DNA of 58,163 bases from a virus: IMG/VR virus record IMGVR_UViG_3300017758_003447, positions 1 to 58,163 of that record. One strand, 5' to 3'. This document shows positions 28,529 to 58,163 of this stretch, one piece after another. Every line of letters starts with the position of its first letter. The first letter of the stretch is position 1. Both the position numbers and the translations under genes were made by a program. The notes beneath the pieces are model-generated. The model saw only the letters and a program-made list of their open reading frames with translations. It was not told where the DNA came from and made no database searches.

Positions 28529-30394
28529 TTAAAAGTTCTTTTTAAAGGTTAACATAAAATTACGTCCATCTTGGTTATATCCGTCTGGTCTTTCATACGT
28601 TTTGTCTGTTATATTGTTTAAAGACAACACAATATTGGTATCTTTTGCTACTTCATATTTGGTATGAAAGTTGGCTACACCTACTGCTGGTTTAGTAATT
28701 GTAGCATAAGTTGATGAATCGATGTCTAGATGTTCTCCCATATACACATATTCAAGTGAATTGTTTGATTTACCTAGTATCCAATCAACTGCTGAAAATG
28801 ATTGCCACCTAGGTCTTCTTGTAACTTGTTTGTTATTGCTGTCTTGTGCAATCGTCCAAGTCAATCCATTTCTAAGAAATACATTTTCATTTATCGTTGA
28901 TGTTGTTTTTATTTCAGCACCATGTCTATTGGATTTTCCTGATGCATTAGAATATGTACTATTACCATATGTGATCATATTATCTAAGTCTGTATCAAAA
29001 TATACAAAGTCCAACGAATGATTGTTAAACTTATATTCAAACCCTATATCAATTGTTTGTGCTTCTTCTGGTTGTAAGTTAGCATTACCACTGTAACCAT
29101 AGCTGTCTGCCCCGTACAGTTCGTATAACGTAGGTGTTTTTACTGCTGTTGTGTAATTACTTTTTAATTTAAAGTTATTTGTTACGGTATATACTCCACC
29201 CAATCTATAAGTTGTGTAGTCGCCAAACAAACTTGGATTGTCATGTCTTATACCTATTGAGTATAAAAAGTCTTCTCCAACATTGACATTACTGTTTAAA
29301 AAAACAGATGCATTGTTTCCTTCTTTGTCTACAGATGATGTGTATGAACCTGTGTTATTAAACGTACCGTCAAACTGTTCATATTCAATTCCTGGTGTAA
29401 AATCAATTTCTTCATTTTGTATTGTGTTAGTAAAAATAAAAGTATTTGAATTGGAATCATATGTGTCAATTTCAGTACCATTAACATATTCTCTATCGTA
29501 TTCTGTTCTAGAGAATGTAAAATTACTAAAACCTAATGAGTTATCAATTTTGCTACCAACTTGATAAAGATTCATATCACTTTTGGATGTGTAATCTAAG
29601 TCATCTGATGTGCCGCTGTCTAAGTCAGCATCACTAGTTCGTTTCATTATTGTGGTTCTTAAATCAAAACCATCATATTTACTTTCAGTATCTAATGTAA
29701 AATTGTTTGCATCAAATCCGTCTTTTTCAGTTCCAGTTGGTGCAACTGATATACCATCTGAAGTTGTTCCATCTGCTGTAAAACTAATAGAATGATTGTT
29801 GATATATTTGTGTACTTTTAAAGTTAAACTTTTTGTATTGTTAGATCCTACAGTTGTTGAAATTGAGTTTTCGTACTTGCCTGTAGTAATAAAATTAATT
29901 ACACCACCAACTGCGTTTGCACCAAATAGTGTTCCTTGTGAACCTTTTACAACTTGTATTGCGGTAACGTGTTTGATAAAATCAGAACCTATGTCGTGCA
30001 ATCCACCTGTTGTAGAGTGATCTTTTATTGCGACACCATTTATTGCAACCATAGTATGATTAGAATTAGTTCCTCTCATGAATACTGACGTTTGTTGTCC
30101 TGTTGATCCTGATTGTATAACTGTCAGTCCGGTAATTCTTTTAATTGCTTGTACTGTGTCTTGTGTGTTTGTGTTTTGTATTGTATAACTGTCAACGTAA
30201 TCTACACTCATTGATTCTGTTGTTTTTGATGTAGGATCTCTTAATACGTAAACTGTTATAGTGACAACTGGTGTGTCATCTTTTTCATATAAAGATTCTG
30301 AATTCCAATTATTTGTTTCTTCTGCATTTACGGAATTAAAAATAAATCCCCATGTAAAGAATAGTAGTATTACAAGTATTGTCTTTTTAGCCAT
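28529..30394 (-). CDS. TonB-dependent outer membrane receptor, BtuB-like
   Basis: 621 residues, close to E. coli BtuB (614). A signal peptide is cleaved near SVNA-EE (24). A TonB-box-like TPVVTITVYV spans 41-50. The plug has FMRGTNSNHTMVAINGVAI and VVKGSQGTLFGANAVGG. The barrel follows to the C-terminal ITDKTYERPDGYNQDGRNF ending in Phe, as in BtuB. It would bind cobalamin or a related ligand and import it with TonB energy. The start overlaps the membrane-protein gene, and AAAGGAG precedes the ATG. It lies downstream of a cobalamin riboswitch, so B12 uptake is the best guess. Siderophore uptake cannot be excluded. Confidence 0.88.
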   Translation of the reverse strand: MAKKTILVILLFFTWGFIFNSVNAEETNNWNSESLYEKDDTPVVTITVYVLRDPTSKTTESMSVDYVDSYTIQNTNTQDTVQAIKRITGLTVIQSGSTGQQTSVFMRGTNSNHTMVAINGVAIKDHSTTGGLHDIGSDFIKHVTAIQVVKGSQGTLFGANAVGGVINFITTGKYENSISTTVGSNNTKSLTLKVHKYINNHSISFTADGTTSDGISVAPTGTEKDGFDANNFTLDTESKYDGFDLRTTIMKRTSDADLDSGTSDDLDYTSKSDMNLYQVGSKIDNSLGFSNFTFSRTEYDREYVNGTEIDTYDSNSNTFIFTNTIQNEEIDFTPGIEYEQFDGTFNNTGSYTSSVDKEGNNASVFLNSNVNVGEDFLYSIGIRHDNPSLFGDYTTYRLGGVYTVTNNFKLKSNYTTAVKTPTLYELYGADSYGYSGNANLQPEEAQTIDIGFEYKFNNHSLDFVYFDTDLDNMITYGNSTYSNASGKSNRHGAEIKTTSTINENVFLRNGLTWTIAQDSNNKQVTRRPRWQSFSAVDWILGKSNNSLEYVYMGEHLDIDSSTYATITKPAVGVANFHTKYEVAKDTNIVLSLNNITDKTYERPDGYNQDGRNFMLTFKKNF

Positions 30395-30894
30395 GAATAA
30401 CTCCTTTTAGCTGTTTCATATATTGCAAATAATACAGAAACATATAAAATAGTACTCACGAATGTATTTTGAAAAAATGGAATAGCCATCGTGTAACACA
30501 TAACTAATCCTTCTAATGTTTTTGGATACATTGTAGACGTCAACCATACAGCAAAATTTGTTATCACATAAAACATTACTGCTGATCCTACTGATACTGA
30601 TGCCAAATGTGTTAAGGATTTTTGTTTTAATGTTGATGTACTTAATAGTGTACATAACATTATACTTCCATAAACCCAAAACATCGATGAATGCATACCC
30701 AAATATAAATCAGATATAAACATCGCCACTAGTGGAATCAACATCGCTGTATAAACATCACGGATCATGTATGGCATGAAAACAGCCATGGCTATGATTG
30801 GTGTGAAGTTAGGTGGATGTGGTATCAATCTACTTAAAGCAAGAATGCCTGAGTAGTATAATATCATTAATAATGTTTTTTTTGTTGTACTCAT
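30370..30894 (-). CDS. Multi-spanning membrane protein, probable vitamin uptake component
   Basis: 174 residues with 5-6 predicted spans. PHPPNFTPIIAMAVFMPYMI, then LIPLVAMFISDLYLGMH matches what I recall as DUF6580, which resembles S components of ECF vitamin transporters. It is the first gene after the cobalamin riboswitch and overlaps the BtuB-like receptor. An inner-membrane partner for cobalamin or a precursor is likely. No ECF ATPase is seen in this window; the phage may rely on host energy components. Confidence 0.75.
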   Translation of the reverse strand: MSTTKKTLLMILYYSGILALSRLIPHPPNFTPIIAMAVFMPYMIRDVYTAMLIPLVAMFISDLYLGMHSSMFWVYGSIMLCTLLSTSTLKQKSLTHLASVSVGSAVMFYVITNFAVWLTSTMYPKTLEGLVMCYTMAIPFFQNTFVSTILYVSVLFAIYETAKRSYSWLKRQYL

Positions 30895-33267: not shown

Positions 33268-34875
33268 CTATATAATCATTGGCATAGGCACAATATTACC
33301 TTCACCATCTTCATCATCACGTTGTCCTAAACTTTGTTCAAATATAGGATCATATTTTGCTAAATTTCCGACTAATCTACAACACAGTAAACTAGCAGAT
33401 ACCAAATCATCATTTTCTCCTAATTTAGCTGAGAATGAATTTCCTTTTGCAACAAATACTTTAAGCTCTCTAATTAAGTTTCTACTATGTATTTGTAACT
33501 TACCTGTTTCAACCCAATTTTTTAATCTTGAACAAGCAGATAGTTTTGCTTTGTGTGTTGTATTAAATCCTTTACGTTTATGTACATCACGTCTTTGTTG
33601 TCCAGCACGTCTAGGTTCATGTGTAAAGAAACCTGGAAATCTATCTTCACCCATTTCTTCAATAGCAACAATGGCCGCTTCACCTAAAGTATTATTTTCT
33701 ATAGTCCAATAAATTTCCGGTTGCGGTGTTCCTTGTTCTTTTAATTGAGTATCTAAATCTTTTAAAATACCTAGTAGTGTTCTAACTTGTCCTTGTACTG
33801 TTGTTTTGTTATGTTGCCATTCAGCTACCTGTGTAAACTCCGGTAAACTAAAAACTTGTATTGCTGAATAATCTCCTCCTGTACCTAAACTAGGATCTAA
33901 GGCTACAACATAAGTGTTTCCTTTTCTAGGCCTTTCATACCAACGTACTTGACCTGTTTTGTATAAAGGATCTTTTCCTGCTAATGTGATTAATTTTAAT
34001 CCATCGATTAGTGTTTCATCAAATGCGATAAATTCACAATCATGCTCACGTCTAAATCTTTCTTCACCTATTCTTGCACGTTCATCTTTGGCCCATTGTT
34101 CATCTCTATCTGGATGTTCTGACCAATGTACATTTATTGCTCTAAAGCCATTGATACCTGTACCATCTCTAGTAGGTTGACCAAATTCGTCAACTTTTTT
34201 ATTTGCACTTCTCCATAGTCCTGCAAACACATCGTCATCATTGTTTGGTGTTGATGTAATAATACACTTACCACCTGTTGACAATGTTGGAGATAGTGAA
34301 GTCCAAAACTCACTGGCCTTCTGTTGTGGTTCAACGAATGCAAACTCATCCATGTAAACTAAAGATATAGACATACCCCTACCTGTTGTTTCAGTTGTGG
34401 TTTGTGCTATAATCCTAGAACCATTATCAAAATCCATTGATCCTTTATTATAACTTGTTACTCCACATCTGATATAGTCAGGTGATTCTTCATAAGCAAA
34501 TCTTACACGTTGCATGATATCCTGGGCACCTTGATATTTGTGTGCCGCAATCAATATTAAAACATCTGGATGAAACATAGCATACCATAACAAGTATCCT
34601 GCCGCACAGGTTGTTTTACCAGTTTGCCTTGCACACATGGCGATTGCAAATCTATTATTATTATATGTTTCTAACAATCTCTCTTGGTACTCAAATGGCT
34701 CAAATTTCATACGTCCTTTAGTAGGATGTTGAATCCACATATGATTTTTCATGAATTGCAAATAACCAGTTTTCTTGTCAGCACATTGTTTTAGATCAAG
34801 TAACTGAGCTTCTGTATACTTGGTTTTTGCGTATGCTTTTTTAGTTAAATTTCCGTCTAGACTTTTATGTACCAT
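33268..34875 (-). CDS. gp17: Terminase large subunit gp17
   Basis: 535 residues. The ATPase motor has Walker A CARQTGKTT (81-89) and Walker B VYMDEFAF (173-180), with a coupling segment CIITSTPN. The C-terminal nuclease domain has YVVALDPSLGTGGDYSA and later acidic residues. It packages phage DNA into proheads and cuts the concatemer, with gp16. An exact T4 late promoter sequence (34881-34888) lies upstream. Confidence 0.96.
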   Translation of the reverse strand: MVHKSLDGNLTKKAYAKTKYTEAQLLDLKQCADKKTGYLQFMKNHMWIQHPTKGRMKFEPFEYQERLLETYNNNRFAIAMCARQTGKTTCAAGYLLWYAMFHPDVLILIAAHKYQGAQDIMQRVRFAYEESPDYIRCGVTSYNKGSMDFDNGSRIIAQTTTETTGRGMSISLVYMDEFAFVEPQQKASEFWTSLSPTLSTGGKCIITSTPNNDDDVFAGLWRSANKKVDEFGQPTRDGTGINGFRAINVHWSEHPDRDEQWAKDERARIGEERFRREHDCEFIAFDETLIDGLKLITLAGKDPLYKTGQVRWYERPRKGNTYVVALDPSLGTGGDYSAIQVFSLPEFTQVAEWQHNKTTVQGQVRTLLGILKDLDTQLKEQGTPQPEIYWTIENNTLGEAAIVAIEEMGEDRFPGFFTHEPRRAGQQRRDVHKRKGFNTTHKAKLSACSRLKNWVETGKLQIHSRNLIRELKVFVAKGNSFSAKLGENDDLVSASLLCCRLVGNLAKYDPIFEQSLGQRDDEDGEGNIVPMPMII

Positions 34876-35351: not shown

Positions 35352-36446
35352 CTAATCACGTTTAGATATATTACAAGTTAACTTCCATTTACTATTTGAA
35401 CATTTATCGTAACACAACTGCATTTTTAAACTTCCATCATTATTTCTTTTTTCAGTTTCCCATGCATCAGTCATTTGTTTCCAAAGTCGTGAACTGGCAA
35501 TTTCTTTTAATGAATATTTGGTATAGTCATTAAATCTTTTTTCAATAAAAGGTATCATCCATGGTTCAGTTTTTTGTAACATAAGTTTAGTTGTGTCATA
35601 TTCTAACGAATGCCAACAGCATGGCCAAACTCTACCATGTGAGTTTATGTATATTTTATTTTTTACAAAAGATTTGCATTCAATATCATTAGTTGGATTT
35701 TTTAAATCAATATTCAATCTACGTGCTTCTTCTTCAATTACTTTATCAACATCAGATGATAAAAAATTTCCTTCTTTTTCTCTTAATTCAATCTGTTCAT
35801 CATCATAAATGTCGTCACTGTATCTGGTCGAATACTGAGGAAGAAACTTTGTAAATCCTAATTTCTTAGCAAGTCTTTCTGCTTCATCTACTTGATGTTT
35901 GTTATGCTCAAAGACCAAATACTTCCAAGTAGCATCGCCACCAGCATTGATGTAGGCTTCAACATTGGCTATTAGTCTATCCCAATCTACTCCTTTTCTA
36001 TACAAGTGATTAGTGTCTTTTAATCCATCAATAGCAAAAGTCATTGTAGCTGGGTCACTGGCTTTCTGGCTTTCTTCTTTGCTGATTCTACCTGCTTCTT
36101 GCCAAAACTTAATAGGTCTAATACCGCCATTAGTTTCTACTTCTATTTTTCCAAAATTCTTAACACAGTACTCCCATATCTGTGGCAACTGTGGATGCAT
36201 TATTACATCTCCTAAATTTCCAACAAACCAAAGCTCTACATCTTTTGATTTATTGCGGGATGTAAAATCTAAATCTTCTCGTAATTGATTAAACACTTCA
36301 AACGGAATATGTCTCAAAGGCAACGACTCTATTGTTTTACTAGTGCCATGATCGTGTCTAGCACAATAAGGACATCCTGCATTACAATATGTTGTTGCTT
36401 CAATTTCAACTATTTCAATGTTGTTAATATCTATCTTGTTAAACAT
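35352..36446 (-). CDS. Radical SAM protein with C-terminal SPASM/twitch-like Cys
   Basis: 364 residues. The motif CNAGCPYC (Cys21, Cys25, Cys28) is the canonical CX3CX2C. Phe-Val-Gly-Asn near LWFVGNLGDVIMH replaces the usual GGEP-type strand. A C-terminal Cys group (GRVWPCCWH and CYDKCSNSKWKLTC) probably ligates an auxiliary cluster. This is the second radical-SAM enzyme in the window, unlike the one at 1523. Both sit among virion genes. Substrate unknown. Confidence 0.9.
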   Translation of the reverse strand: MFNKIDINNIEIVEIEATTYCNAGCPYCARHDHGTSKTIESLPLRHIPFEVFNQLREDLDFTSRNKSKDVELWFVGNLGDVIMHPQLPQIWEYCVKNFGKIEVETNGGIRPIKFWQEAGRISKEESQKASDPATMTFAIDGLKDTNHLYRKGVDWDRLIANVEAYINAGGDATWKYLVFEHNKHQVDEAERLAKKLGFTKFLPQYSTRYSDDIYDDEQIELREKEGNFLSSDVDKVIEEEARRLNIDLKNPTNDIECKSFVKNKIYINSHGRVWPCCWHSLEYDTTKLMLQKTEPWMIPFIEKRFNDYTKYSLKEIASSRLWKQMTDAWETEKRNNDGSLKMQLCYDKCSNSKWKLTCNISKRD

Positions 36447-36679
36447 ACACTTATTTAAATTGTGTGTGTAGGTTTTAAATTATGTTATATTTTTGTATGC
36501 GACTTTTTGTATGTGTTGTATGCGATTTATGTGTATGTGTTATATATGTTGTATGCGATTTATGTGTATGTGTTGTATTAGCTTTTGTGTATGTGTTTTG
36601 TATGTTCGCGGTCGAAATCATGGGTGTCTTGGCCGCTCCGCCTCGCGGGTGGTTTCCTTAACTGTGTCTTAATGCTTGT
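36447..36679. repeat. Intergenic island: degenerate tandem repeats plus GC-rich hairpins
   Basis: A 233-base gap. Two perfect 28-base copies beginning TGTTGTATGCGATTTATG (36514-36541 and 36547-36574) repeat at a 33-base period. A degenerate copy is at 36491-36518 and a remnant after 36580. Next, 36608-36655 is unusually GC-rich for this genome. GCGGTC and GGCCGC can form a 6-bp stem, and CCGCCTCGCGG a small hairpin. No ORF of note. It may be a structured leader of the radical-SAM mRNA, a packaging or origin-like site, or an insertion remnant. Confidence 0.6.
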
Positions 36680-37198
36680 TTATTGATCTACTATAGATTG
36701 ATAGTTACCAGTGTTTGTGCCAACTGCCTGTGCCGCTCTATCAAATGCACCGCCTACTTTGCCTGGTATGTCTTTTGCTTTGCCTGGATCTAATCTACTA
36801 GATAGTTCCATTTGCGACAATATGTTCAAATACAAATTTCTAATACGTACTATTTTGTAAGCATCTTCTTTAGTTTCAATGTATCCTTCCATGTTACTAA
36901 ATGGCTCTCCTGATGGAATGGCTTTTATTCTGTTTTTGATCACGTTTGGATCCAGCTGTTTTAGTGCCTGTGGTTGGAAACCTGCTATGGACACACCCAA
37001 CTGTATATCTTTTAGATTACGTGTTAGGTCTTCAATTCCACCAATTGCTTTTAGGCCTGGTTGTCCGCCTCCACGTCTACCCATACGAAAAATTGATTCT
37101 GCTGACTTGGTAAACAACGGTTCTGACATTATGTTGAATGGTTCTTCTACACCTGCCGCTTTAAAATCATCTTGGATCTTTGCCTGTGTACGTGCCAC
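36680..37198 (-). CDS. Virion-type protein, probable -1 frameshift extension of the upstream ORF
   Basis: 172 residues from a GTG at 37198. No ATG and no properly spaced ribosome binding site exist. The frame stays open back to 37270, through ISEAGQIAQILQRDYGNHVA. It therefore looks like the second half of a protein begun in the 37252-37722 gene, entered by -1 slippage. It has Gly/Arg-rich FRMGRRGGGQPGLKAIGG and helical parts. No family recognised. If fused, the product is about 330 residues and probably part of the virion or packaging machinery. Confidence 0.68.
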   Translation of the reverse strand: MARTQAKIQDDFKAAGVEEPFNIMSEPLFTKSAESIFRMGRRGGGQPGLKAIGGIEDLTRNLKDIQLGVSIAGFQPQALKQLDPNVIKNRIKAIPSGEPFSNMEGYIETKEDAYKIVRIRNLYLNILSQMELSSRLDPGKAKDIPGKVGGAFDRAAQAVGTNTGNYQSIVDQ

Positions 37199-37251
37199 AT
37201 GATTGCCGTAATCCCTTTGTAGGATTTGTGCTATTTGTCCAGCTTCACTGA

Positions 37252-37722
37252 TTATTGAGTCTTTTTTTTTGAGTCGCTTTCAGCAACAAATGATTTATAT
37301 TCACTCATCAAAGCCTCAAAGCGATCTTCTGTCACAGCTTCGTCTTCGTTGGTTAATGGATTGTCTCCATGTTTAGCTGGAACGTATTTGAATTTCTTTT
37401 GTGCTTTAACGCCTGAAGTGAAATCATCTTGCTTGAACTGACCGGCTGGTGAATGTACCATCTCTTCATTGTCTTCGTTCATAGATACCTCTGCTTGTAA
37501 ATCGTCTCTTTGTAAAGCTCTTTCAAGCTCGTCTTGTGTAGCTGTTGTTACAACTTCTACCATAGATGAATTAAATTCGTTTTGATCAACTACTGCATCT
37601 GCAACACCACTTTGCTTTAAAGCAAATTCAATTGATGGTGCAATTGATCTATCTTCGTCTAGATCAAAACTTCCTAGATCTTCAACTGTGATTGTGTATG
37701 ATTTTGCTTGAGCTTCCATCAT
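37252..37722 (-). CDS. Acidic virion-type protein, first half of a possible frameshift fusion
   Basis: 156 residues with an acidic N-terminus (VEDLGSFDLDEDRSIAP), a small alpha/beta start, and an acidic middle (EVSMNEDNEEMVH). It ends SDSKKKTQ at a poly-A run that carries the slippery heptamer. No family recognised. It overlaps the next upstream gene by one base and belongs to the packaging/tail operon between gp16 and gp17. Confidence 0.68.
   Translation of the reverse strand: MMEAQAKSYTITVEDLGSFDLDEDRSIAPSIEFALKQSGVADAVVDQNEFNSSMVEVVTTATQDELERALQRDDLQAEVSMNEDNEEMVHSPAGQFKQDDFTSGVKAQKKFKYVPAKHGDNPLTNEDEAVTEDRFEALMSEYKSFVAESDSKKKTQ
37261..37267 (-). other. A-AAA-AAG slippery heptamer
   Basis: Within the reading frame of the 37252-37722 gene the mRNA reads TCA AAA AAA AAG ACT CAA TAA. 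The A-AAA-AAG is the classic bacterial -1 frameshift heptamer, as in dnaX. A -1 slip leads into the frame of the downstream 172-residue ORF with no intervening stop. A homopolymer sequencing error of one A would give the same picture. Confidence 0.6.
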
Positions 37723-38360
37723 TATTTTTTACCTCTATTGTCATTTGACAAAGGTGATTTGGCACCTTTCTCTGACTCTCTTGGTTCACTTGAATCTTTT
37801 GCATCTGTTTTAGTTGCGACACTCAATGGTCCTTCAACTTCAACGTTTGCTCTGTCTGGATCTTTTGCTTTGTTATCGATCAATGTTTGTAGGAAATTCT
37901 TTTTGTGTTCTTCACCAGCAATTTTATCTGCGTCTTTGTACTGCTCATCTTCGCTGTACTCTTTACCCATTTTAGGTTGATAGTCTTCTGCATTGGCTTG
38001 TTGTCTTGCCACTTCTGCTTCGTTCTCTGCCTCAATAGGATCATTAGGACCTTTGACTACAACGTAGTCATAAACTAAACCTAACTTGTCGGAAAGGTTT
38101 CTTCTAATTGTTTCATGCGATACTGGTAAGTGTACTACTGCATCAATTATATAAACTTCAGTGTTTCTAATCTTTGTACCAAAGTCCAATGGATGCTCTT
38201 GCATAATAGTTTTAGTTGGTTTAGAAACAGATACTACATCAAATCTAGATAATTCTGTTTCAATAACGTTCATCATGTCATCAGTAACTTCTGCCGCTAT
38301 TTTAATTCTTAACGGAATCTCTTTTACTGCTTCAGATAGATATGATTTAAAACTCTTCAT
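37722..38360 (-). CDS. Uncharacterised virion-type protein
   Basis: 212 residues from Met15 of the longer frame. It begins MKSFKSYLSEAVKEIPLRIK, a start common to virion proteins of T4-like marine phages. A folded alpha/beta part spans about 10-115 (VYIIDAVVHLPVSHETI), then a charged, disordered C-terminus. The shorter start has GGAGG upstream and avoids overlapping gp16, so I prefer it over the start at 38402. No known function. Confidence 0.7.
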   Translation of the reverse strand: MKSFKSYLSEAVKEIPLRIKIAAEVTDDMMNVIETELSRFDVVSVSKPTKTIMQEHPLDFGTKIRNTEVYIIDAVVHLPVSHETIRRNLSDKLGLVYDYVVVKGPNDPIEAENEAEVARQQANAEDYQPKMGKEYSEDEQYKDADKIAGEEHKKNFLQTLIDNKAKDPDRANVEVEGPLSVATKTDAKDSSEPRESEKGAKSPLSNDNRGKK

Positions 38361-38364
38361 ATTT

Positions 38365-38946
38365 TTATTTATCCTCCTTATCGGATTTATCATCGGTTTC
38401 ATTTACCTTTTGAATCAGCTGATCTAGTAGTTTATTGCGGTCTCCTACCACATATCCTTCGCCTTCTATGACTTCATCAGTGCTTGTACCCTTGTTATCC
38501 CACTGATCTACACGTTGTTTTTTCAACTGTAGCTCAATCATTCTTAGCTTTTTGTCAGCTTTTGCGTTCTTGGCTTCTACGGCATTTTTCAGCATTGTAG
38601 AAGCTACTTCAAACATTTTACCGGCGTGTCTAGCCTCAGAATTCATACCTAAATCCATTAGTTCACGATATGACTTCATTGCTTCATCTGAAAAATCATC
38701 CATATCACCATCATGTGCTTCCAAGTTTTTAACTTGCGGTAAAGCATTGTCAATTTTTTGAGCTGTTGATAATGCTTTTTTTATTACTGCTTCATCTGGT
38801 TGTTCTGGTTGTTCTACTGTTTCTTCAACTACTTCTGTAGTTTTATTTTCAGATGCTTCTTGTTGATTTTCCTCTGCAGATTCTTGTTCCGCTATCATAT
38901 CTTCTATGTTTGGTAAATCAAATGTATCTTCTAATTTTTTATTCAT
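38365..38946 (-). CDS. gp16: Probable terminase small subunit, gp16-like
   Basis: 193 residues. A Glu/Gln/Thr-rich N-terminus (1-55) precedes a helical core, SYRELMDLGMNSEARHAG, then FEVASTMLKNAVEAKNAKAD and LRMIELQLKKQRVD. The helical pattern fits gp16 of T4-like marine phages, which guides gp17 to DNA. gp17 is encoded downstream on the same strand, with four to five genes between. The assignment rests on pattern and context. Confidence 0.62.
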   Translation of the reverse strand: MNKKLEDTFDLPNIEDMIAEQESAEENQQEASENKTTEVVEETVEQPEQPDEAVIKKALSTAQKIDNALPQVKNLEAHDGDMDDFSDEAMKSYRELMDLGMNSEARHAGKMFEVASTMLKNAVEAKNAKADKKLRMIELQLKKQRVDQWDNKGTSTDEVIEGEGYVVGDRNKLLDQLIQKVNETDDKSDKEDK

Positions 38947-55476: not shown

Positions 55477-56640
55477 TTACGCAAATGATAAGTTAGCTAC
55501 TGCGATTTTAGAAACGTAGTCGCCTGCATTACCAAGTGATGAAGCAGTATTGTTTAACTCTACATAACCGTATCTAGTCATGAAAGAAACTACTGGCTCA
55601 AAAGTTGCTGGATCAATTACAACGCCTGATGACATTAATGGGATGTATGGGCAATAAAACGCCGCCGCATCCACTTCACCTGGACCTTTGTAACCAACAA
55701 GCACGTTAGCTGTTGAGTTTGCATATGAGTTAACATATACTCTCATAGCACCATTTAAAGTACCTACAAATTTAGTATTTGTTGGCGCTTCAAAAGTACC
55801 TTCAGTTGTTCTTGCGAACGCTGAAGTTGTCGCTGATTGAAGAACTGTTAAAGCCGCTGGTGACATTACTGCCCAGTTACCTGCACCTCTTCTAGTTCTT
55901 TGTGCGATTAAGTTAGCTTGTTCATTGATCATGATAGCCAATACTGCGTGTCTGTCACCAACGAAAGTTGGAGTACCAGTGAACGTACCGTTCATGTCAT
56001 AAGTTGACGCGGCTGTACCTGCTAATGTATCTAATGAATTGATAACTTCTTGATCGATCTCAGCTGTGATCTCTTGTGCTAAAGCGGCCATAATTTCTGC
56101 TTCTACATCTAAACCGTGCATAGCATTGGCATCTTGAGCTGACTCAAAAGTCCATCTCGCTGATAGTTTTCTTGTCTTAGCTTCAACAGTTTGTTTCAAT
56201 ACTTGGATTGATAATCTGTTACCTGCTTGACCTTCTAATGTACTTGTTCCTGCCGCATTGTCACCAGATGTGTTACCTGCGTAACCTCTTGAAATTGCAA
56301 ATGGTGATAGTGCTTCTGAACCTGCAGTTACACCTGCTGATGAATCTGCATATCTTACTCTTAATGTGTGGATCTGTCCTACAGGACCCGTCATAGGTTG
56401 TACACCAACGATTTCGTTAGCGATAACTGTAGGCATAACACGTCTGATTACTGGAAGGATAACTTTGTTTAATGCCGCAACATTACCAGCACCTGTGGCG
56501 CCGGCTGTAGCCGCTTCAGCCAAATATGATTGTGTATTTTCTAATACAGCATCCATAGTTTGTCTTTTTTGGCCTTCAAGACCTTCTAGTAACGCAGATT
56601 TTGTGTCATTCCATGCTTCTGTAATTACTTTGTCTGTCAT
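55477..56640 (-). CDS. gp23: Major capsid protein gp23
   Basis: 387 residues, shorter than T4 gp23 (521) but with the usual layout. A charged N-terminal delta-like segment (1-50) precedes VAALNKVILPVIRRVMPTVI and a core with QIHTLRVRYADSS, RKLSARWTFESAQDANAMHG and ITAEIDQEVINSLDTLAG. The C-terminal block is CPYIPLMSSGVVIDPATFEP. It forms the icosahedral head; the N-terminus is probably trimmed by gp21. It lies 2 bases after gp22, in the T4 order 21-22-23. A TAAGGAG site precedes the ATG. Confidence 0.97.
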   Translation of the reverse strand: MTDKVITEAWNDTKSALLEGLEGQKRQTMDAVLENTQSYLAEAATAGATGAGNVAALNKVILPVIRRVMPTVIANEIVGVQPMTGPVGQIHTLRVRYADSSAGVTAGSEALSPFAISRGYAGNTSGDNAAGTSTLEGQAGNRLSIQVLKQTVEAKTRKLSARWTFESAQDANAMHGLDVEAEIMAALAQEITAEIDQEVINSLDTLAGTAASTYDMNGTFTGTPTFVGDRHAVLAIMINEQANLIAQRTRRGAGNWAVMSPAALTVLQSATTSAFARTTEGTFEAPTNTKFVGTLNGAMRVYVNSYANSTANVLVGYKGPGEVDAAAFYCPYIPLMSSGVVIDPATFEPVVSFMTRYGYVELNNTASSLGNAGDYVSKIAVANLSFA

Positions 56641-57749: not shown

Positions 57750-58163
57750 CTATTTCTTCAGCTCACTTATTAGTTTTGTAATTTCGGTAGCTAAAAACTT
57801 TTCAGCTCCACGATCGTACAATGCGGCTTGGCTTAAACCAAAAAGGTTCATTCCGCCTCGCATATTAAGTAAGTTCTCGTATATTGCTTTTGGATATGCA
57901 TCCGGTGCCGAAGGTTGTGCAACAATGTCCACAGTTTGTATTTCAAAACCATTTACTTCGCCGCTCTCGTTTACATTTCCAGAGCCTCTTGAACTTACTC
58001 CTAGTTTGGCACCACTTTCTAACAAAGTGGTAACAATTTTTCCCATTGGTGTTGGCATAATCTTAAGACTGCCGAAACCGTCAGGCCCATCCATCCACAT
58101 ATTTTCAATCATGTGTGATACACGATCAAGATTAACTGTTAAGTTATCTGGATGGTCTGCCTC
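57750..58163 (-). CDS. gp21: Prohead protease gp21, 3' part
   Basis: The frame is open to the right edge, so the N-terminal part lies outside the window. At least 137 residues are visible. They include EADHPDNLTVNLDRVSHMIE (from the edge), GKIVTTLLESGAKLGVSSRG and FEIQTVDIVAQPSAPDAYPK, which match the second half of the gp21 serine protease, including the conserved Ser-Ser-Arg-Gly and Ser-Ala-Pro. It cleaves gp22 and gp23 before DNA packaging. The ATG at 58112 is internal, not the start. Confidence 0.9.
   Translation of the reverse strand, partial: EADHPDNLTVNLDRVSHMIENMWMDGPDGFGSLKIMPTPMGKIVTTLLESGAKLGVSSRGSGNVNESGEVNGFEIQTVDIVAQPSAPDAYPKAIYENLLNMRGGMNLFGLSQAALYDRGAEKFLATEITKLISELKK

Follow-up and report, generated by a model that had tools for sequence, protein, structure and literature searches.

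A conserved nine-adenine tract as a candidate slippage site joining two reading frames in marine T4-like phages

Recoding of structural proteins is known in phages, where it mostly proceeds via ribosomal frameshifting. In the gp10A/10B proteins of T7 and T3 and in the coat and tail proteins of the Listeria phages A118, A500, and PSA, recoding near the stop codon provides a minority of the molecules with a C-terminal extension, and the tail assembly chaperones G and GT of lambda are short and -1 extended forms derived from one late gene. Virion proteins extended by frameshifting have been described in phages (PMC5009743), and for E. coli the heptamer A_AAA_AAG has been named as a motif at which frameshifting is highly efficient (PMC4066793). 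Transcriptional slippage at runs of nine or more nucleotides is encountered in T. thermophilus dnaX, Citrobacter rodentium tssM (A11; PMC4256274), Shigella mxiE and spa13, and IS elements, and where a run of nine A has a conserved length in homologs, purposeful transcriptional slippage is considered very likely (Baranov et al. 2005, PMC1088944). Besides recoding, head-packaged proteins can be processed by proteolysis; gp21 of T4 cleaves after L/I-X-E and strips the leaders from such proteins (PMC9026906). In a limited search of the open-access literature, we found no description of a virion gene of tailed phages with conserved transcriptional slippage at a poly-A tract.

Here, we describe two overlapping reading frames, P1 and P2, at positions 36680-37722 on the minus strand of a 58,163-nucleotide stretch of DNA from a marine T4-like phage, the whole of which is referred to as the window. 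The features that make up the locus are the following:
37252-37722, minus strand: P1, the 0-frame open reading frame of 156 aa, encoding the short product
37262-37270, minus strand: A9 tract of exactly nine A, the candidate slippage site
37261-37267, minus strand: A_AAA_AAG heptamer in the P1 frame
36680-37270, minus strand: P2, the -1 frame extension of 196 codons plus a stop

The 0 frame of P1 ends in GAA AGC GAC TCA AAA AAA AAG ACT CAA TAA; in the -1 frame, no stop codon occurs between the A9 run and that at 36680-36682. A sequence-only reading of this DNA had described a 156-residue frame that ends at a run of nine A with the heptamer in frame, as is confirmed by the sequence at 37261-37270, followed by a -1 frame that lacks an ATG and a spaced ribosome binding site. 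The latter was borne out as well, as the first start codon of the P2 frame in the window is a GTG at 37198 that is not preceded by a well-spaced Shine-Dalgarno sequence. The length of the joined protein had been put at about 330 residues and was recomputed as 347 aa. The A9 tract is the sole A or T run of at least nine in the 58-kb window.

The window belongs to a phage of the T4 superfamily, on the basis of an S77 protease, a gp23-type capsid, two tail-tube genes, a gp4-like head closure, and a large terminase (TerL). The neighboring genes used for comparison are:
37722-38402, minus strand: phrog_14802 virion structural gene, the upstream head gene
33268-34875, minus strand: TerL, the synteny anchor downstream
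55477-56640, minus strand: major capsid protein of the T4 gp23 family

PA5oct-type Pseudomonas jumbo phages encode a TerL with 54% identity to that of the window, and with PA5oct the window has the order sheath, tubes, head closure, 193-aa gene, phrog_14802 gene, P1, and TerL in common. The counterpart of P1 in PA5oct is gp281, annotated as a structural protein detected by mass spectrometry. A role of P1 and P2 in the virion or head is suggested by this gene order together with the protease motif described below, and gene order and the PA5oct annotation are consistent with a location inside the head. Unlike the lambda G/GT genes, which are positioned between the major tail and tape measure genes, the locus lies in the head/packaging region between the gp4-like head closure and TerL rather than ahead of a tape measure gene.

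P1 consists of an N-terminal β-α-β-β-α-β domain and a conserved C-terminal tail (KQDDF..KKFKYV.A..GDN(P/G)L...EYxxF); its structural model has a pLDDT of 67 and yielded only unspecific matches to small α/β proteins in a structure search. P2 is predicted to be an independent domain of mainly helical structure, the core of which is modeled with good confidence (pLDDT 75, pTM 0.71), and the search of known structures gave no match for it below an E value of 0.19. Neither Pfam nor PHROGs holds a family for P1 or P2, and no matches were obtained when P2 or the fusion was compared by tblastn with 50,697 phage records or when genome contigs were scanned for the family. A common origin of P1 and the 226-aa head protein encoded upstream was rejected (hhalign probability 0.2%), and weak matches of the P2 profile to HK97 capsid proteins among PDB sequences (E 0.03) found no support in the structure search.

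Relatives of P1 and P2, designated by L numbers, were collected by scans of IMG/VR. Exactly nine A with P2 in the -1 frame were found at 13 non-identical junctions from many metagenomes (the window type, L003, L019, L146, L150, L020, L115, L119, L021, L112, L101, L108, and L147), across which identity falls to approximately 50% for P1 and approximately 22% for P2. Several of these junctions were assembled identically from 2-5 different metagenomes, including the L021 type (5 samples), the L019 type (3 samples), and the window type (the window plus 2 contigs), and in the homologs the run is always directly followed by GAC(T/C). In two lineages, a run of A10 makes the reading frame continuous, namely L004, with a fusion of 348 aa and an A10 that rests on one assembly, and the L105/L138 type, with A10 in 2 metagenomes. 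In the clade of L018, L114, L132, and L137 there is no run, and P2 has its own ATG that overlaps the P1 stop (TAATG). P2 is absent in the more distant L023-L025 and L163-L171, in which P1 ends at the same position. The gene usually terminates after GDNx(L/M)...Y..(F/K) in the wider family, and a profile of the P1 tail aligns over 44 columns with the C-terminal ends of PA5oct gp281, Munch 239, and GAP32 207 (hhalign E 1.4e-4, probability 52%). Since distant relatives end the gene there and share the tail, the 0-frame product is, by this comparison, the ancestral protein in its complete form, to which P2 was added as a C-terminal extension.

Within clades, dN/dS values of P2 are mostly 0.08-0.33 (0.52 in one near-identical pair), which argues that P2 is translated and, judged by its substitutions, evolves as a protein; the dS of P1 between clades ranges from about 1.1 to saturated. 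When run lengths of 7 to 12 were generated in silico, the long product was obtained only at 7 and 10 in 15 of 15 lineages, and at all other lengths a stop codon followed within 1-6 residues past the run, again in all 15. A comparable dependence of the long product on run length is known for Thermus dnaX (PMC1088944). Taken over these relatives, functional recoding that joins P1 and P2 is very probable, and comparison of the predicted products shows both short P1 and long P1-P2 as forms maintained by selection.

With respect to the mechanism, the position of the run relative to the codons varies between lineages: it reads NNA AAA AAA AAG (class a) in the window, L021, and L101 types and NAA AAA AAA AGA (class b) in the L019, L020, and L150 types. 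A third phase occurs in L046 and L068, outside the clade, and the length of nine is kept in all. Long runs are scarce elsewhere in the window genes as compared to codon-randomised versions: 39 runs of at least 7 were observed versus 64 expected, 8 versus 18.7 for runs of at least 8, and approximately 3.8 runs of at least 9 were expected (300 replicates, of which 4.7% had one or fewer). Lysine is encoded by AAA in 84% of cases, and therefore a single KKK has a fair chance of being written as A9 (p about 0.46-0.64 per junction); the weight of the tract lies in its conservation across lineages and in a P2 that is always in the -1 frame and lacks a start, not in chance at one site. Downstream folding, calculated for pseudoknot-free structures, gave z-scores of +0.2 to -2.4 in most lineages and a stable hairpin only in L101/L108 (z -3.6 to -4.2), such that no hairpin common to the A9 lineages was found, and no Shine-Dalgarno-like element was seen upstream of the heptamer. 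Three of the characteristics of transcriptional slippage after Baranov et al. (2005) are encountered here: a run of at least nine of conserved length, from which the two lineages with A10 and the clade with separate genes depart, the same overlapping reading frames and conserved extension in homologs, and avoidance of such runs in other coding sequence. On the basis of the constant length of nine, the avoidance of runs elsewhere, the lack of a common hairpin, and the correspondence with these characteristics, the shift is judged somewhat more likely to be transcriptional than ribosomal, and polymerase slippage and a ribosomal shift may act together at the tract. The locus resembles the slippage systems mentioned above in having a long A/T run near the end of a reading frame, a stop soon after, and an extension reached via one extra A, with a conserved run length and avoidance of such runs elsewhere. 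It differs from them in being a predicted case, in a virion gene of a dsDNA phage, and in being retained across diverged lineages, with A10 and split-gene alternatives among its relatives.

The best surviving alternative is that P1 and P2 are joined exclusively by programmed -1 ribosomal frameshifting at A_AAA_AAG or A_AAA_AAA, without a contribution of RNA polymerase. One of these heptamers is present in the 0 frame before the stop in every A9 lineage, in class a as the strong A_AAA_AAG that is efficient in E. coli (PMC4066793), and the direction is always -1; moreover, L101/L108 have a downstream hairpin and phage virion proteins provide precedents (PMC5009743). However, the heptamer uses only 6-7 of the nine A and suffices for ribosomal shifting, which leaves unexplained why every split lineage has exactly nine, and the codon phase varies, the downstream structure is not shared, and the A10 lineages fuse the two proteins in frame. 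We therefore consider a purely ribosomal shift doubtful. The sequence-only reading had recognized the classic architecture of programmed -1 frameshifting at this site; comparison upholds the recoding that joins the two frames, but the ribosomal part is not established, in view of the conserved run length, the variable codon phase, the lack of shared structure, and the fit to the slippage criterion (PMC1088944). That reading had named neither the ancestral status of the 0-frame product nor the protease motif past the junction.

A phase-variable tract, by which genomes would toggle between A9 (short product) and A10 (fused product) at the DNA level, is improbable. A9 and A10 are indeed found even among near relatives (L003 and L004), but near-identical junctions from separate metagenomes agree in run length, and mixed populations were not seen among the assembled contigs. 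Still less plausible are two independent genes with P2 translated from an internal GTG or by re-initiation past the P1 stop. The earlier reading had regarded separate genes in relatives as counter-evidence; these were found only in the L018/L114/L132/L137 clade, where P2 has its own start, and six other clades have A9 or A10. The A9 relatives have no start codon where the window has its GTG; in L019, L146, L020, L150, and L101, the P2 frame offers a first one only 134-392 nt beyond the end of P1, within conserved P2 sequence, and any such start is preceded by the conserved [IL]SE segment. Finally, an A missing from the assembly of a continuous A10 gene, as found in L004 and L105/L138 and suggested earlier for the window, can be rejected with near certainty, as related ocean phages retain the same nine A despite long divergence, in 13 non-identical sequences of which several come from independent metagenomes and in each of which both non-fusion frames are closed within 1-6 codons.

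Directly past the junction, the P2 frame contains a motif that fits a protease encoded by the same phage:
37244-37252, minus strand: I-S-E in the P2 frame (KKKDSI-ISE/AGQ), a predicted prohead-protease cleavage motif
57750-58163, minus strand: prohead protease, Peptidase S77 (T4 gp21 family), cut by the window edge

The protease matches PF03420 (E 9e-13) and phrog_207 (E 7e-38), so that both the motif and a cognate S77 protease, as expected for a substrate of a T4-type prohead protease, are present. All 19 P2 homologs have an [ILV]-x-E motif that ends at most 12 residues from the junction or from the beginning of P2, with I or L in 17 and V in 2 (V-V-E in L101/L108), whereas such motifs occur in 4.5% of the 14-aa windows in the remainder of P2 and in 18% genome-wide. 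Its glutamate is invariant in the 18 aligned homologs, and the P2 alignment has only one other invariant column; the motif itself varies (ISE/A in the window, LSE/Q, LTE/N, and LSE/R, among others, with the slash marking the predicted cut). The clade with two genes has the same motif in a short leader, MRYxEI(T/V)E, that precedes P2. At junctions of class b, the 0-frame stop that overlaps the L codon partly dictates it, but not the E. The N-terminus of the phrog_14802 gene, MKSFKSYLSE/AV, also fits the motif, and its YLxEAV leader is invariant. These sequence patterns tip the balance slightly toward release of P2 by the prohead protease.

The following scheme, in which polymerase slippage has the main part, may be proposed. 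The A9 tract would be a purposeful slippage site that allows two proteins to be made from one late virion gene, with the extra A added mainly by RNA polymerase and possibly some ribosomal -1 shifting at A_AAA_AA(G/A). Both forms would be taken into the prohead, with the P1 part serving as the carrier in the minor, long form, and cleavage after [ILV]-x-E past the junction would free P2 inside the head. The overall logic would be Gag-Pol-like: fuse, package, and cut. As a whole, this account of a slippage-made long form, entry into the prohead via P1, and liberation of P2 by the protease is considered probable. The likeness to retroviral Gag-Pol, which is drawn here, concerns a recoded minor fusion that is carried in by its N-terminal part and cut by a particle protease; the differences are a dsDNA phage, host transcription, a prohead serine protease, a P2 fold that matches no known structure, and a cleavage that is predicted. 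With the T4 internal proteins, of which the capsid targeting sequences are cut by gp21, the A9 phages share the L/I-X-E motif, the S77 protease, and the gp23-type capsid, but their "leader" would be an entire other structural protein, joined by recoding. In contrast to the T7/T3 and Listeria cases, P1 is not a major capsid or tail protein, a homopolymer replaces the slippery site with structure, and the window phage has the protease motif directly past the junction.

Beyond the clade, A runs of at least nine were found in the 3 kb before TerL in 4 of 68 distant TerL relatives, and in three of these four (L043, L046, and L068) the run is located at the C-terminus of a P1-like gene. The third codon phase of L046 and L068 reads TTY AAA AAA AAA GAC TAG, and a different module (KYVKGMKK...MYATATKMAKK) follows in their -1 frame; L029 and L033 lack a run and carry this module as an in-frame fusion. 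L043 has a third domain that continues in frame beyond its A9, so that here the short form would arise from slippage. Using the P1-like protein of L046 as a query brought up no additional members with A9, which leaves two sequences for the L046/L068 type. These cases suggest that the switch is used with different cargo. That it constitutes a reusable loading device, with exchangeable C-terminal modules attached by slippage and brought into the prohead, and with at least P2 released by the protease, is a tentative extension of the same comparisons. As a separate observation, the module can be written as KYVKGMKK.KGDFKKRYGDDA..VMYATATKMAKK, and occurs in frame in L029/L033 and in -1 after A9 in L046/L068.

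Automated gene callers split genes of this kind or label them as errors. The family offers natural experiments in the form of A9 split, A10 fused, separate, and P2-lacking variants, which make the importance of the short-to-long ratio and of the freeing of recoded cargo by the protease directly testable. If true, the account would imply a Gag-Pol-like loading scheme in dsDNA phages.

Several other genes and repeats in the window and its relatives were recorded. Two radical SAM/SPASM-type genes are present (35352-36446 and 1523-2752, both minus strand), one of which lies between P2 and TerL, and imperfect direct repeats (TATGTGTTGTATGCGATTTATGTG) occupy 36450-36620 between the radical SAM gene and P2. 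In the relatives L018-L022 and L101, P2 is directly followed by a gene of 439-440 aa that is probably also of the radical SAM/SPASM type, and in the L021/L112 clade a second A9 is found at the start of this 439-aa gene (L110:7036, L112:7036). The window further contains bacterial transport genes, encoding a TonB-dependent outer-membrane receptor with plug and barrel (28529-30394, minus strand) followed by a DUF6580 membrane protein (30370-30894, minus strand). A complete gene for ribosomal protein L11 (PF03946, PF00298; 45247-45675, plus strand) adjoins the tail sheath gene on the opposite strand.
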